Source: Haloarcula halophila
Lineage (GTDB): Archaea > Halobacteriota > Halobacteria > Halobacteriales > Haloarculaceae
Direction: 5' to 3'
Length of the DNA stretch: 64,000 bases
NCBI RefSeq assembly: GCF_029278565.1
Contig: NZ_CP119559.1
Coordinates: forward strand, 124,001-188,000
Positions 46,543 to 54,458 of this stretch are shown in pieces. The translations under genes and the position numbers were made by a program. The notes under the pieces are model-generated. The model ran no database searches. It had not been told where the DNA came from and worked only from the letters and a program-made list of their open reading frames with translations. Position 1 is the stretch's first letter, and each line of letters begins with the position of its first letter.

Positions 46543-47514
46543 ATGGCCGATACGGTGGCGTGTCTGGTGGTCGACGACGAGGGTGGGACCGTGTGGTCGG
46601 CGTTGCGCGACGCCGACGGCGTCGCTTCCGAGAGGATCGACGGCGACGCACTCACGGAGCGGTTGGGCGGTGGCGACACGGATATCGTGGTGATCCGGGA
46701 CGACCCGCCGGACCGTGACGGCGTCGATCTGTTTCTCGCGGCCCGGCGGAAGGCCTCGGTCCCCGTCCTGCTGGTGGGAACCGATCCCGCCCCCGATCGG
46801 ATCGAGACGGCGATCGCCGCCGGCGTCACCGACTACGTCTGCTGGACGGACGCCCCCTCGTTGGTCGCCCGCGTTCGCGGCTACGCGACCAGGCCGCTGC
46901 TGGACCCGTTCGCACAGGCCGCGGAGTACGCCGAGTTCGGGAGCGGGCTCTCACACGACGCGAAGAACCCGCTGAACGTCGTTACCGGACGACTGGAACT
47001 GCTCGATGTCGACGCGACACACGAGGACGCGATCGACCGCTCGCTGAGTCGGGTCGGGACGCTGCTGGACGAACTCTCGACGGTCGGGAAACTCGCCCGG
47101 CCGGTGGTCGACCCCGAACGGCTCTCCATCGAAACGGTCGCGACCGACGTCTGGGGGAAGATGAACGTCCCGGACGCGACGCTTTCGGTCACGGCGACCG
47201 GCGACGTATCGGCCGAGGTCGGCCGACTCCGTGAACTGTTCGAGCGCCTCTTCGACAACGCTGTCACACACGGCGGGGACGACGTCACCGTCGAGGTCGG
47301 CGAGACGGACGACGGGTTCTACGTCGCCGACGACGGTGGGGGAATCGACGACGCCGACAGACAGCGGGTGTTCGAGGCCGGCTACGGGACCGCCCGCGAC
47401 GGCGAGGGATACGGTCTCTACGTCGTCAAGCGAATCGCCGACGCCCTCGGGTGGCGCGTCGACGTGACGGAGAGCGAGGCCGGCGGGGCACGGATCGACG
47501 TTCGGACGACGTGA
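46543..47514 (+). CDS. Histidine kinase with receiver-like N-terminal domain
   Basis: A 323-aa protein. The N-terminal part (1-115) has a receiver-like fold (ACLVVDDEGG, VVIRDDPPDRDG, VPVLLVGTD, GVTDYV), but the usual LLD-x-x-MP phospho-site is altered and the Lys motif is missing. HisKA follows with His138 (GLSHDAKNPLNVV). HATPase_c has the N box LFERLFDNAVTHGGDD, G1 DDGGGIDD and G2 DGEGYGLYVV. A TTCTTATC box about 27 nt before the ATG suggests a leaderless start. No partner regulator is adjacent. Confidence 0.88.
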   Translation: MADTVACLVVDDEGGTVWSALRDADGVASERIDGDALTERLGGGDTDIVVIRDDPPDRDGVDLFLAARRKASVPVLLVGTDPAPDRIETAIAAGVTDYVCWTDAPSLVARVRGYATRPLLDPFAQAAEYAEFGSGLSHDAKNPLNVVTGRLELLDVDATHEDAIDRSLSRVGTLLDELSTVGKLARPVVDPERLSIETVATDVWGKMNVPDATLSVTATGDVSAEVGRLRELFERLFDNAVTHGGDDVTVEVGETDDGFYVADDGGGIDDADRQRVFEAGYGTARDGEGYGLYVVKRIADALGWRVDVTESEAGGARIDVRTT

Positions 47515-47929: not shown

Positions 47930-48367
47930 CTACTCCGTCTGTCGTTCTCTCTCCTCGACTAACTCGCCGATACGAGCGCACGCTCGCGCACACACCGGGA
48001 CGTAGCCAGCGGCGAGTGGCGGGATCTCGAAGGCGACGACGGTTCCGCTTGGCCCCGGTTCGACCCGGTGTCCGGTCGCGTTGAGCCGCGCGACGGTCCA
48101 GGTCCAGCGGTAGCTCTCGCAACTGGTCACCTCGAAGGGGAACCAGGCCGCGTCCGCGACACGGACCCGTCCGGTCGTCCCGGCGTCGATGTACTGGTCG
48201 TCACACTCGACGTCGGAGACGGACGGCCCCCACGCGTGCCACTGCTCGGTGTCGGTGAGGACGTCCCACACCGTGTCGGCTGGTGCATCCACGTCCCGCC
48301 GGACGACGATCCGGCGGCCGTCCGGAGTCTGTTCGATCGCTGCCCTCGCGCCGTAGGGAGCCCACAT
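47930..48367 (-). CDS. SRPBCC/polyketide-cyclase-like lipid-binding protein
   Basis: A 145-aa START-fold protein. IVVRRDVDAPADTVWDVLTDTEQWHAWGPSV is the characteristic entry strand-helix, and the end has PLAAGYVPVCARACARIGELV. SRPBCC proteins bind hydrophobic ligands in a deep cavity. It is divergent from the ABC exporter operon with only 60 bp between starts, so a shared promoter region is likely and a functional link possible. Confidence 0.85.
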   Translation of the reverse strand: MWAPYGARAAIEQTPDGRRIVVRRDVDAPADTVWDVLTDTEQWHAWGPSVSDVECDDQYIDAGTTGRVRVADAAWFPFEVTSCESYRWTWTVARLNATGHRVEPGPSGTVVAFEIPPLAAGYVPVCARACARIGELVEERERQTE

Positions 48368-48427: not shown

Positions 48428-49345
48428 ATGATCGACGCCCGGGACCTTCGGAAGGAGTACGGTGATTTCGTCGCTGTCGAGGGCAGCACGTTCTCGGTCG
48501 ACCGAGGCGAGGTCTTCGGCATCATCGGCCCCAACGGTGCCGGCAAGACGACCACGCTGAAGATGCTCGCCGGGTTGCTCGATCCGACCGGCGGCGAGGC
48601 GGAGATCGCCGGCCTGGACACCGAGACGACCGAGATGCGCCAGCGTCTGGGGTTTCTCCCCGAGGAGTCCCCGCTGTACGAGGAGATGACGCCGGTCTCG
48701 TATCTGCGATTCTTCGCCGACCTCTACGACGTGCCCGGCGAGGTCGCCGACGAGCGGATGCACGAGACGCTGGACGAACTCCAGTTGGAACACCGCGACC
48801 GGAAACTCGGCGACATGTCCAAAGGGATGAAACGGAAGGTCGCCATCGCCCGCTCGCTGATCAACGATCCCGACGTCCTCATCTACGACGAGCCCGCTTC
48901 CGGGCTGGACCCACTGACGACGAACTACGTCATCGAGTTCACCGAACAACTGGCCGCCGAGGGCAAGACCATCGTCTTCTCGGCGCACAACCTCTTTCAC
49001 GTCGAGTCGATCTGTGATCGCGTCGCGATCATGAACGAGGGGGAGATCGTCGCTCGCGGCGATCTGGAGGCGCTCCAGCGCGAGTATGGCGAGACGCGGT
49101 ACCACGTCTACACGACCGTCGAGGTCCCCGACGCGGCCCGACGGAACGGCCACTTCGTCCGGGAGGTCGGCAGTATGGACGCCGTCGAGGAGACGCGCTC
49201 GCTGGCCCAGGACCGGGGCGGCGAGGTCGTCGACATCCGGACCGAGGAGTCGAGCTTGGAGGAGGTGTTCCTCAACGTCGCCGAGTCCGGGACCAGCGGC
49301 ACCCGCTACGTCGGTGAAGACGGGGAATCGGGGGACGGGGCGTAG
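48428..49345 (+). CDS. ABC transporter ATP-binding protein
   Basis: A 305-aa ATPase of the ABC-2 exporter type. Walker A is GPNGAGKT (34-41), the signature is reduced to MSKGMKRKVAIARSL, and Walker B is VLIYDEPASGLDP. The C-terminal 80 residues form an extra helical tail (AARRNGHFVREVGSMDAVEE) seen in NatA/CcmA-like exporters. The stop is directly followed by the ATG of the permease, so the three genes 48428-52310 form one operon. The substrate is unknown. Confidence 0.93.
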   Translation: MIDARDLRKEYGDFVAVEGSTFSVDRGEVFGIIGPNGAGKTTTLKMLAGLLDPTGGEAEIAGLDTETTEMRQRLGFLPEESPLYEEMTPVSYLRFFADLYDVPGEVADERMHETLDELQLEHRDRKLGDMSKGMKRKVAIARSLINDPDVLIYDEPASGLDPLTTNYVIEFTEQLAAEGKTIVFSAHNLFHVESICDRVAIMNEGEIVARGDLEALQREYGETRYHVYTTVEVPDAARRNGHFVREVGSMDAVEETRSLAQDRGGEVVDIRTEESSLEEVFLNVAESGTSGTRYVGEDGESGDGA

Positions 49346-51229
49346 ATGCAGCCACGGAAGCTCCTCCGGATCGCCAAGTGGGAAGTGACGAAAAACGCCG
49401 GCGGCGTCGACAAGCGGACCATCGTGGTGATGGCGCTCGCGATCCTGGCGATGGGCGTCGTCGCCGCGACGGCCGTCGGCGGCGGCGGAGCGGCCGCGCT
49501 CGACCAGGGGATCTATCGCGTGGGCGTCGAACAGTCCAGCCCCTATTACGCCGTCGCGGCCAGCGATTCGACGTTCCAGGTCCAACAGCCCGTCTCCGGG
49601 GTGGCAGCCGGACCCCGTCAGGAACTGACCTTCGAGGGGACGACCCTCCAGCACGCCCCCAGGACGCCCAAACAGCGGGCAGCGCTCGCCGAGTTCGGCG
49701 GGAGTACCGAGCGGTACAACGACGAGTTGCTGGGCCGGGACGACAACCGGACGGCGGCGTTCCCGGTGACGGTGACGCTTCGCTACGCGGAACAGGACGG
49801 CCCGAGCCTGGTTGACCCTCGAACCGGTGGCGACGGGACGACTGACGGTGGGAGCGGGGACGGCAGTACCGACGGCGGGAGCGGAACCGACGGTGGTGAC
49901 GGTGCGAGCGACGGCGCTGCTGGTGGGGGCGACGGCGGTGACGGAGCCGCAAGCGGTGGCGGCGGCGCGAACCTGGGGAGTCTGGGTGCACGGCTCTCGG
50001 GCGACGTGGACGGCGGGACCCCCGGCGACATCTCGCCACCGTTCCCCTTCGAGTCGCTCGTGCTCGCCTTCCTCTATATCGTCCCGATGAACTTCGTCAT
50101 CCAGGCCTACGGCTCCTCGATGCTCTCCGAGCGGCTGAACCGGCGGGGAGAACTCCTGCTGGTCACTCCCGCCTCCCGGGCGGACATCATCGGCGGCAAG
50201 ACGCTGCCGTACCTGCTGGGGGCCGTCGGCGTCGCGGCGGTCATCACCGGCGCGCTTCGGCTGACCGGTATCGCCCCCAGCGGGAGTCCGATCGCGGTGC
50301 TGGCGGTGGCGCCCGTCGCGCTGTTGTTCCTCTCGGCGACGTTCTGTGGCGCGATGTTCGCCCGCTCGTTCAAGGAACTCACCTTCGTCACCGTCACGAT
50401 CACCGTCACGCTGACCTCCTACGCGTTCGTGCCGGCGATCTTCACGGACGTGACACCGATCGCGCTCATCTCGCCGCTGACGCTCGTGGTGATGGATCTG
50501 ACCGGCCAGTCGATCGAACTCGCGGAGTTCGCGTTCTCGACGGCGCCGCCGTTGTTGACCGCGCTGCTGTTGTTCGGACTCGGTGCCGGGCTCTATCGTG
50601 AGGAGGACATGTTCACCCAGCGGTCGATCCCGCTGAAGGTGCTCGATACGCTGTCGGGGCGGATCAACTCCCGCTGGAGCGCGTTCAAGATCACCGTCAT
50701 CCTCCTGCCGCTGATCATCGTCGCGGAACTGGTCGCCATCGCGTTCCTGTTCGTGCTGGACTCGGTCTCGTTGAACGTCTTCGGGACGAACCAGACGCTG
50801 GGGATCGTCCTGATCCTCGTGGTCGTCGCCGTCGTCGAGGAGCTAGCGAAGAGCCTCCACGTCTACGCCGGCTACACGAACGCCAAGTACGAGGCGACGC
50901 TCCGGTCGGCGCTGGGACTGGGCGTCCTCTCGGGGCTGGGCTTTTTCGTCGCGGAGAAGGGCCTGCTCATCGCCCGGCTGGCGAACCTCGATACGCTGCC
51001 GATCGGTGAGGCCGCGCTCCAGGGGGCCTCGGTGCCGGCCGGCACCCCGCTCTGGATCGCCGGAGTCCTGCTGTTGCTCCCGCTGGCGTTACACACCGTC
51101 ACGGCGAGCATCTCGTCGGTCGGTGCGACGCGGGGCTTGCGGGGGTATCTGCTCGGTATCGGCCTAGCGATCCTCGTCCACTTCGCCTACAACTTCACTG
51201 TCGTCACGGCGGTGAGCGGCTATGTCTGA
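49346..51229 (+). CDS. ABC-2 permease fused to PrsW-like membrane protease
   Basis: A 627-aa membrane protein. One N-terminal helix (about 25-45) is followed by an exported region with a Gly/Ser/Asp-rich linker (about 160-215). A permease part (about 233-415) includes FLYIVPMNFVIQAYGSSMLSE. The last part (about 445-627) has the PrsW/CPBP-clan motifs EELAK (Glu498, Glu499, Lys502), FFVAE (Glu537), His583 and HFAYN (His612, Asn616). PrsW proteases cut membrane anti-sigma factors in Bacillus; archaeal targets are unknown. It overlaps the next gene by 8 bp. Confidence 0.82.
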   Translation: MQPRKLLRIAKWEVTKNAGGVDKRTIVVMALAILAMGVVAATAVGGGGAAALDQGIYRVGVEQSSPYYAVAASDSTFQVQQPVSGVAAGPRQELTFEGTTLQHAPRTPKQRAALAEFGGSTERYNDELLGRDDNRTAAFPVTVTLRYAEQDGPSLVDPRTGGDGTTDGGSGDGSTDGGSGTDGGDGASDGAAGGGDGGDGAASGGGGANLGSLGARLSGDVDGGTPGDISPPFPFESLVLAFLYIVPMNFVIQAYGSSMLSERLNRRGELLLVTPASRADIIGGKTLPYLLGAVGVAAVITGALRLTGIAPSGSPIAVLAVAPVALLFLSATFCGAMFARSFKELTFVTVTITVTLTSYAFVPAIFTDVTPIALISPLTLVVMDLTGQSIELAEFAFSTAPPLLTALLLFGLGAGLYREEDMFTQRSIPLKVLDTLSGRINSRWSAFKITVILLPLIIVAELVAIAFLFVLDSVSLNVFGTNQTLGIVLILVVVAVVEELAKSLHVYAGYTNAKYEATLRSALGLGVLSGLGFFVAEKGLLIARLANLDTLPIGEAALQGASVPAGTPLWIAGVLLLLPLALHTVTASISSVGATRGLRGYLLGIGLAILVHFAYNFTVVTAVSGYV

Positions 51230-52310
51230 GGACCGCTCGCTGCTCTCCGACGCTCGGCTCCGGATCGCCAGACGGGACGTGGCCTCGCTCTCCCGGGAGA
51301 AGACGATCGTGCTGGCGTTGCTGATCCAGTTGTTCGTCGCCGGCTTCTCGTCGTTCCTGGTCGTCGGGCTGACCTCGCTGTACGACCCCGGCTCGGTCGC
51401 GACGAGCGAGGTCGAGGTCGCGATCACCGGCGACGCTCGGGCCGAACTCGTCGAGGCGTCCCGGGAACATCCCGAGACAGACGTGGTCGCCTTTGCCGAC
51501 GCAGAGCAGGCCCAACGGCAGTTCGACCGCGGTGAGGTGGACGCGCTGTTACGGGCCGACTATCAGGAGCGCGAGGAGAGCGACGGCCGGGCGATCGGAG
51601 TGACGGCGACGATCCCCGAGGGGAGTATCCGTTCGACACTGATCGTCGTCCAGATCAGGCAGTTGCTGGGGACGCTGGAACGACAGGAACGGCTCGACCG
51701 ATCGTTCTACCTCGACGAGCCGCCGGTCCCGCAACCGCCGGAGATCGGCGCCAGCCCGTACTTCGGGTTCACCTACACGGTGTTGATCCCGCTGTTGCTG
51801 TTCCTGCCGCCGTTCATCAGCGGCTCGGTCGCGGTGGACACGATCACCGAGGAGATCGAGCGCGGGACCCTGGAACTGCTCCGTGTCGCGCCCGTCTCGC
51901 TGCTGGACATCGTCGAGGGGAAGGCCCTGGGGATGACGGTCATCGCGCCGGCCCAGGCGCTGCTGTGGATCGGGTTGCTGTCGGCAAACGGGATCGCGGT
52001 CAGCAACGTCGTCCCGATCGTCCTGTTCGTGACGGCCATCTCCGTCATCGTCGTCGCGATCGGGTTGGTCCTCGGTGTCACGATGGGGCGGCGACGGCCT
52101 GCACAACTGCTGTACTCGGTGCTGACGCTGGTGATCTTCGGCGGGGCGGTCGTCCTGCCGGAACATCCGGCGACGACGATGGCGAAACTCGCCGTCGACA
52201 GTCCGACGACGCTGACCTACGCCCACGTGGGACTGATGGCCGCAGTGGCGGTCGGCGGATACCTGGTCGTCCGGCGATACGTCCGAACCGTCGAACCGGA
52301 GACGCTGTAG
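51222..52310 (+). CDS. ABC-2 type permease
   Basis: A 362-aa membrane subunit. The first helix is ETIV-type IVLALLIQLFVAGFSSFLVVG (about 25-45). An exported domain follows (about 60-180) with VAFADAEQAQRQFDRGEVDALL, typical of NatB/YhaP-like permeases. Five further helices come after FTYTVLIPLLLFLPPFISGS, with the EEIERGTLELLRVAPVSLLDIVEGK loop contacting the ATPase. It overlaps the permease-protease gene, completing the exporter. Confidence 0.9.
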   Translation: MSEDRSLLSDARLRIARRDVASLSREKTIVLALLIQLFVAGFSSFLVVGLTSLYDPGSVATSEVEVAITGDARAELVEASREHPETDVVAFADAEQAQRQFDRGEVDALLRADYQEREESDGRAIGVTATIPEGSIRSTLIVVQIRQLLGTLERQERLDRSFYLDEPPVPQPPEIGASPYFGFTYTVLIPLLLFLPPFISGSVAVDTITEEIERGTLELLRVAPVSLLDIVEGKALGMTVIAPAQALLWIGLLSANGIAVSNVVPIVLFVTAISVIVVAIGLVLGVTMGRRRPAQLLYSVLTLVIFGGAVVLPEHPATTMAKLAVDSPTTLTYAHVGLMAAVAVGGYLVVRRYVRTVEPETL

Positions 52311-53730: not shown

Positions 53731-53961
53731 TTACGGAACCCGTCCGCCGGCACCACTCTGTTCGTCCTCCCGTGGATGCTGGAACAGCCGAACCAGCGGC
53801 GTCCCGTCGTCGGTGCTGACCGGTTCGACACAGACCCGGTCGAACCGGCTGTCGTCGCCGAGTTCGACCAGCAACCCCTCGTCGTGGAGCGATGCCGACG
53901 AGAACGCGCTCCCACAGACCGGACAGACGACGGGCTCGTCCGGTTCCGTGTCTTCGCTCAC
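53731..53961 (-). CDS. Small CxxC protein
   Basis: A 76-aa acidic protein with a single clear zinc knuckle (VVCPVCGSAF) near the N-terminus and ending LFQHPREDEQSGAGG. It overlaps the macro-domain gene by 4 bp and is downstream of it on the same strand, so the two are co-translated. Its function is unknown. Confidence 0.7.
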   Translation of the reverse strand: MSEDTEPDEPVVCPVCGSAFSSASLHDEGLLVELGDDSRFDRVCVEPVSTDDGTPLVRLFQHPREDEQSGAGGRVP

Positions 53962-54458
53962 CCGCGGACCTCCGTTGCGACCCGCTGTATCGTCTCGTAA
54001 TCGTCGTCCGAGTACGCGATCAGGCGCACGTCGGTCAGCGACGCCGGTTCGAACCCGTCGACGACATCACAGATGATGCGGACGCCGTCCTCGAAGTCAA
54101 AGCCGGCGATCCCACAGCCGATCGCCGGGAGGACGAGCGACTCACACGAGAGCGCGTCCGCTTCCGCGAGCGCGTTCCGCGTGGCGTCCCGGATACTCCG
54201 GGCTGTCGACTGGCCGCCTGGTGGCATCGCGGCGGCGTGAACGACGTAGTCGGCGTCGAGGTCGTAGGCGTCGGTCGTCGCGACGCCGCCGAGGTCCACC
54301 GGTCCCTTTGCGACGGCCTCGTCGGGCAGACCTGACCCCGCGGCCCGCTTGAGCGCGCCAGCGACGCCCGATCCCATCCGCAAGCTCGTGTTCGCAGCGT
54401 TGACCAGTGCGTCGGCCGACTGCTGGGCGATGTCTCCCTGGATGACCTCGAACTCCAT
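53958..54458 (-). CDS. Macro-domain ADP-ribose hydrolase
   Basis: A 166-aa single macro domain. It contains the substrate loop VNAANTSLRMGSGVAGAL (equivalent to the NAAN...GGGV motif) and VLPAIGCGIAGFDFEDGV (phosphate loop). Such proteins remove ADP-ribose from proteins or hydrolyse O-acetyl-ADP-ribose, the by-product of sirtuins. A sirtuin is encoded 12 kb away, but no linkage is implied by context. MEFEVIQGDIA is the usual N-terminus. Confidence 0.92.
   Translation of the reverse strand: MEFEVIQGDIAQQSADALVNAANTSLRMGSGVAGALKRAAGSGLPDEAVAKGPVDLGGVATTDAYDLDADYVVHAAAMPPGGQSTARSIRDATRNALAEADALSCESLVLPAIGCGIAGFDFEDGVRIICDVVDGFEPASLTDVRLIAYSDDDYETIQRVATEVRG

Follow-up and report, generated by a model that had tools for sequence, protein, structure and literature searches.

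ABC exporters and intramembrane proteases are functionally linked in Firmicutes, where EcsAB or PptAB and RasP or Eep act on the same peptides or depend on each other (PMC7157817, PMC2996298). Staphylococcus aureus requires both Eep and EcsAB to produce and export linear peptides derived from lipoprotein signal sequences (PMC7157817), and in Bacillus subtilis loss of Ecs inhibits intramembrane proteolysis by RasP, a membrane 'cleaning function' having been proposed (PMC2996298). During the PrsW-dependent export of polymorphic toxins, the PrsW domain is proposed to process the polypeptide to which it is fused and to pass it through the membrane (PMC3482391). Closer in architecture is the NCBIfam family NF041647 (ABC_perm_CPBP), which, judged by its name and length (about 636 aa), combines an ABC-2 permease with a PrsW/CPBP-clan protease; such an architecture is therefore already represented among known families.

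We describe here a haloarchaeal gene in which a PrsW-type protease forms the tail of an ABC-2 permease. In the Firmicute systems, by contrast, protease and exporter are separate proteins, the protease is of the S2P class, the permease belongs to another family and the parts are not homologous to those of the fusion. The PrsW domain of polymorphic toxins is fused to toxin domains, whereas the present one is fused to a transporter and has no toxin domain, and NF041647 is bacterial with a protease half of the CPBP type. The DrrAB/NatAB-type ABC-2 exporters share the ATPase-permease organisation, but the present module has two unlike permeases, one of them carrying the protease. Searches of the open-access literature turned up no account of an ABC-PrsW fusion, nor of one accompanied by a second permease of its own.

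The fusion gene lies at positions 49346..51229, on the plus strand, of a 64,000-nucleotide window from Haloarcula halophila, which is the whole stretch of DNA analysed; it runs from ATG to TGA and encodes 627 aa. It is flanked on the same strand by an ABC ATPase gene (48428..49345, 305 aa, PF00005 E 1.3e-30) and by a gene for a second ABC-2 permease (51222..52310, 362 aa, PF12698 E 1.4e-20). The zero or negative spacing claimed by the sequence-only reading is exact: the ATPase ORF ends at 49345, leaving no spacing, and the second permease starts 8 bases within the 3' end of the fusion gene. The divergent SRPBCC gene that it placed at the shared gap is also there (Polyketide_cyc2, 47930..48367, minus strand, PF10604 E 5.9e-12), its start at 48367 lying 60 bases from that of the ATPase gene. 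By eye, the ATPase has an intact Walker A (GPNGAGKTT), Walker B (LIYDEP) and H-loop (SAH); its best NCBIfam subfamily match is TIGR01188 DrrA (240.9 bits, under the cut-off of 312). In the NCBIfam scan, the second permease matched the SagH and DrrB models weakly. Against NF041647, whose cut-off is 435, the second permease scored 29 bits and the fusion protein 12.5 bits, and no member of that family was found in 296 genomes of the phylum, even at E 1e-40. Elsewhere in the window, the ORF at 46543-47514 gives by eye the impression of a histidine-kinase core with a receiver-like N-terminus in front of it, and a 166-aa ORF on the minus strand (53958-54458) resembles, also by eye, a macro domain protein (GDI..QSADALVNAAN).

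The N-terminal half of the protein (residues 1-429, 49346..50632, plus strand) has six predicted membrane helices, TM1 at residues 23-44 and TM2-TM6 within 235-416, separated by an external segment (45-234). A Gly/Asp-rich stretch at about 160-210, between TM1 and TM2, is placed outside by the positive-inside rule, as expected for the exported linker that had been claimed in this part. PF12698 matched residues 236-412 (E 2.5e-6) with 27.3 bits, the gathering score of 31.6 being unreached. In a model of the full-length protein (mean pLDDT 74) the helices were good and the linker was disordered and the least confident part. The top PDB fold matches of this model were ABC exporters, such as 8k1n and NosFY, none of them at E<=0.001, and beyond ABC exporters only unspecific matches were obtained. 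The predicted helix layout and the fold matches thus agree with an ABC-2 permease identity of the N-terminal half.

The C-terminal half (residues 430-627, 50633..51226, plus strand) contains five predicted helices (444-474, 483-511, 519-545, 569-594 and 597-626). The sequence-only reading had noticed here four motifs in PrsW-like spacing, and their positions proved correct: EELAK (residues 498-502, 50837..50851, with E498, E499 and K502), FFVAE (533-537, 50942..50956, with F533 and E537), the single H583 (51092..51094) and HFAYN (612-616, 51179..51193, with H612 and N616), all on the plus strand. They follow the order and spacing of EExxK, FxxxE, H and HxxYN in the PrsW family (PF13367, MEROPS M82), and the first two read EExxK and FxxxE rather than the EExxxR and FxxxH of CPBP. 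When residues 430-627 were scanned alone, PF13367 scored 28.5 bits (gathering 23.5, E 1.3e-6), and CPBP (PF02517), the other family that the sequence-only reading had pointed to, had no match listed up to E 10 in the scan of protein parts. PF13367 also exceeded its cut-off at this C-terminal stretch in a whole-genome scan (26.3 bits), which in addition detected two stand-alone PrsW genes elsewhere in the genome. A profile-profile comparison (hhalign) of the fused domain with 13 stand-alone haloarchaeal PrsW domains gave E 1.3e-9, the four motifs all lining up, and the permease half, used as a control against the same stand-alone domains, gave no match. When single relatives were scanned with PF13367, 28 of 66 reached E 0.01 unaided. 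It could still be argued that the motifs are chance matches in the hydrophobic extension of an ordinary permease, since the PrsW half went undetected when the full-length protein was compared with Pfam and NCBIfam by hmmscan, and a sequence search of the PDB with the domain profile found nothing; the PF13367 score over cut-off, the profile-profile match and the phylum-wide invariance described below refute this explanation in practice. Sequence comparison thus confirms that the C-terminal half belongs to the PrsW family. Because the two permease fusions use different protease families, the PrsW- and CPBP-type fusions would appear to be independent events.

These results also bear on annotation. 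In a plasmid collection, a single haloarchaeal megaplasmid bore the fusion, and this Haladaptatus homologue is annotated solely as 'ABC transporter permease subunit' (one annotated record), probably because full-length scans miss PrsW. Fusions of this kind may be under-annotated generally, PF13367 surfacing only when the C-terminal part is scanned.

We then considered whether the predicted active site looks used. Eight residues (E498, E499, K502, F533, E537, H583, H612 and N616) were invariant in 45 full-length haloarchaeal homologues. The same eight were kept, save for one N616D and one F533Y, in about 155 homologues, a set made up of the haloarchaeal sequences, 20 non-haloarchaeal ones and further named loci. 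When 66 protease domains, free of redundancy and the most distant of them about 25% identical to that of the window, were aligned, only six columns were strictly invariant, E498, E499, K502, E537, H583 and H612, with N616 at 90% or more. These six columns coincide exactly with the predicted catalytic residues and fall in the PrsW motifs, which had been named beforehand, and they provide the strongest sequence evidence that the putative site is in use. Modelled alone, the domain reached a pLDDT of 89.6 and a pTM of 0.86, and each of the four motifs falls close to the midpoint of a predicted membrane helix of its own. The first PDB match of this model, and three of the first six, were APH-1 chains of gamma-secretase; since their E-values were non-significant (0.76 and above), the match is only suggestive. 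The modelling proposed by the sequence-only reading thus gave a partial answer, in the quality of the domain model and the mid-helix position of the motifs, and the best fold match fell short of significance; the four motifs may meet in one site within the membrane. A distant relationship of APH-1 to PrsW and CPBP is recognised (PMC6588880). The fold match lends something to the view that the PrsW domain is a pseudoprotease, serving as a membrane scaffold or as a substrate-binding part and cutting nothing. APH-1 is a member of the superfamily that keeps conserved polar residues without being the protease, and this counts against reading the domain as active. We nevertheless regard a non-cutting domain as improbable: the predicted catalytic residues have stayed strictly invariant although most of the domain retains only about 25-30% identity, which would be unusual for a scaffold.

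The fusion was present in 158 of the 296 sampled genomes of the phylum, in 154 of the 256 good ones; of the 47 good genomes among the nearest relatives, 42 had it. Among the matches listed, the frames were open over more than 520 aa, with no internal stops and no split form. Carriers comprise haloarchaea, MCR-positive methanogens and one MCR-negative family (f21): of the 20 non-haloarchaeal carriers examined, seven are f21 genomes without MCR, and the 13 outside f21 possess MCR, which marks them as methanogens (or as other archaea bearing MCR). About 40% of the good genomes lack the module, which must therefore be dispensable in those lineages. In a tree of the protease domains, rooted by midpoint only, all fused copies were set apart from the stand-alone PrsW proteins of the sampled genomes with 99/100 support, and the fused clade split into a haloarchaeal group and a group of the other copies. 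Because the fused domains form one clade, this topology fits a single old fusion followed by mainly vertical descent.

The neighbourhood survey that the sequence-only reading had suggested for haloarchaea found the three-gene module conserved there and beyond. The second permease gene directly followed the fusion gene in all 20 non-haloarchaeal loci and in nearly all haloarchaeal ones, and in nearly every locus the ATPase gene, the second permease gene or both adjoined it. In haloarchaea the ATPase gene is upstream and co-directional with the fusion gene; in 17 of the 20 non-haloarchaeal loci (L141-L160, from methanogens and family f21) it is divergent but still adjacent, so gene order changed and the module stayed together. 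With PF13367 on the C-terminal half and this conserved neighbourhood, the core claim of an ABC-2 permease and a PrsW-like protease in one polypeptide of a three-gene exporter holds. The functions that the sequence-only reading had suggested, trimming of an exported substrate or a response to transport state, are conjectural. In 20 genomes without the fusion, the close orthologue of the second permease was also missing, except for a 219-aa remnant in one genome (G331, L181:5350-6006), in which the C-terminal ~157 residues of the second permease follow directly on the first 41 of the ATPase. From its sequence, this ORF, which sits beside a divergent SRPBCC-like ORF, is best read as the scar of a deletion that removed the fusion gene, that is, a natural knock-out. 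The joint absence and this scar indicate that the module was apparently gained and lost as a unit. Separately, for a second copy in Halorussus salinisoli (L092:4971-6932), neither the ATPase nor the second permease was detected within 5 kb.

No fourth co-conserved gene emerged among the matches listed when neighbours were clustered, a noisy analysis crowded by antisense ORFs, and no substrate gene linked to the module was found. SRPBCC was rejected as a core partner: its association stands for the window, where it is the divergent neighbour, and fails as a general one, since roughly 40 of 97 haloarchaeal loci have it upstream and the 20 non-haloarchaeal loci all lack it there, so that it is limited to some lineages. 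A downstream aldo-keto reductase gene is likewise a lineage-limited neighbour.

Starting from the fusion, the protease family assignment, the invariance of the active-site residues and the conservation of the module, which the data directly support, we infer catalysis, heteromeric assembly, the direction of export and a peptide substrate, and propose a three-gene machine that cuts membrane-embedded peptides and exports the fragments; we give this reading a probability of about 0.48. The ATPase and the two unlike ABC-2 permeases would form a heteromeric exporter, one permease of which ends in the intramembrane protease (PrsW-type, CPBP clan). Within the bilayer, the protease would cut protein membrane anchors or short peptides embedded in the membrane, remnants of signal peptides or of anchors being candidate substrates, and the adjoining exporter would then remove the fragments, so that the membrane is cleared or peptides are released outside. 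One complex would in this way do the work that RasP/Eep and EcsAB/PptAB share as separate proteins in Firmicutes. Against this role count the lack of any linked substrate gene and the dispensability of the module in the lineages without it. We favour this cut-and-export role because Eep/RasP and EcsAB are functionally coupled in Firmicutes; the precedent is a functional analogy only, as the S2P zinc protease and EcsB are non-homologous to the parts of the fusion. Remnants left by archaeosortase A on PGF-CTERM proteins were also considered as substrates through co-occurrence and were dropped: all 256 good genomes of the phylum have ArtA (TIGR04125), and its co-occurrence is therefore uninformative.

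Two other roles would keep the protease active. In one, the exporter would be a sensor of membrane stress or of some compound, and cycling of its ATPase would switch the PrsW domain to cut a membrane-bound regulator. Cleavage of RsiW by PrsW in B. subtilis offers a model, and ABC transporters such as BceAB can act as sensors. PrsW is moreover a site-1 protease in regulated intramembrane proteolysis (PMC9263693). The module, however, has no regulator or anti-sigma-like membrane protein conserved beside it, either in haloarchaea or in the other lineages, which makes transport-gated signalling rather unlikely. To our knowledge Archaea also lack sigma factors, a further point against it. In the other role, the module would be a processing exporter for a dedicated substrate, be it a secreted peptide, a bacteriocin-like product or a lipid-modified protein; the protease would cut off a leader or provide self-protection, as has been proposed for CPBP proteins in bacteriocin clusters. 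The DrrA-like ATPase and the weak SagH and DrrB matches of the second permease would suit such an exporter. The locus holds no conserved precursor or modification gene, and phylum-wide spread with mainly vertical descent is unlike a bacteriocin cluster; we consider a dedicated substrate unlikely.

Altogether, we return to cut-and-export as the preferred reading: the module is old and largely unannotated, and it probably cuts and removes membrane peptides. A bolder form, in which an ancient archaeal complex mechanically couples intramembrane proteolysis to ATP-driven peptide extrusion in one protein, for membrane clean-up or peptide signalling across the phylum, is possible but doubtful. At least two species of Haloferax (L090, L118), a genus for which genetic tools exist, have the module. 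The type of membrane protease that the fusion adds is labelled as nothing but a permease in the single record with annotation. Little is understood of what becomes of the hydrophobic fragments that intramembrane proteases leave behind, and a physical explanation has been missing for the link of EcsAB with RasP or Eep; such coupling becomes directly testable in a natural, conserved fusion of protease and exporter.
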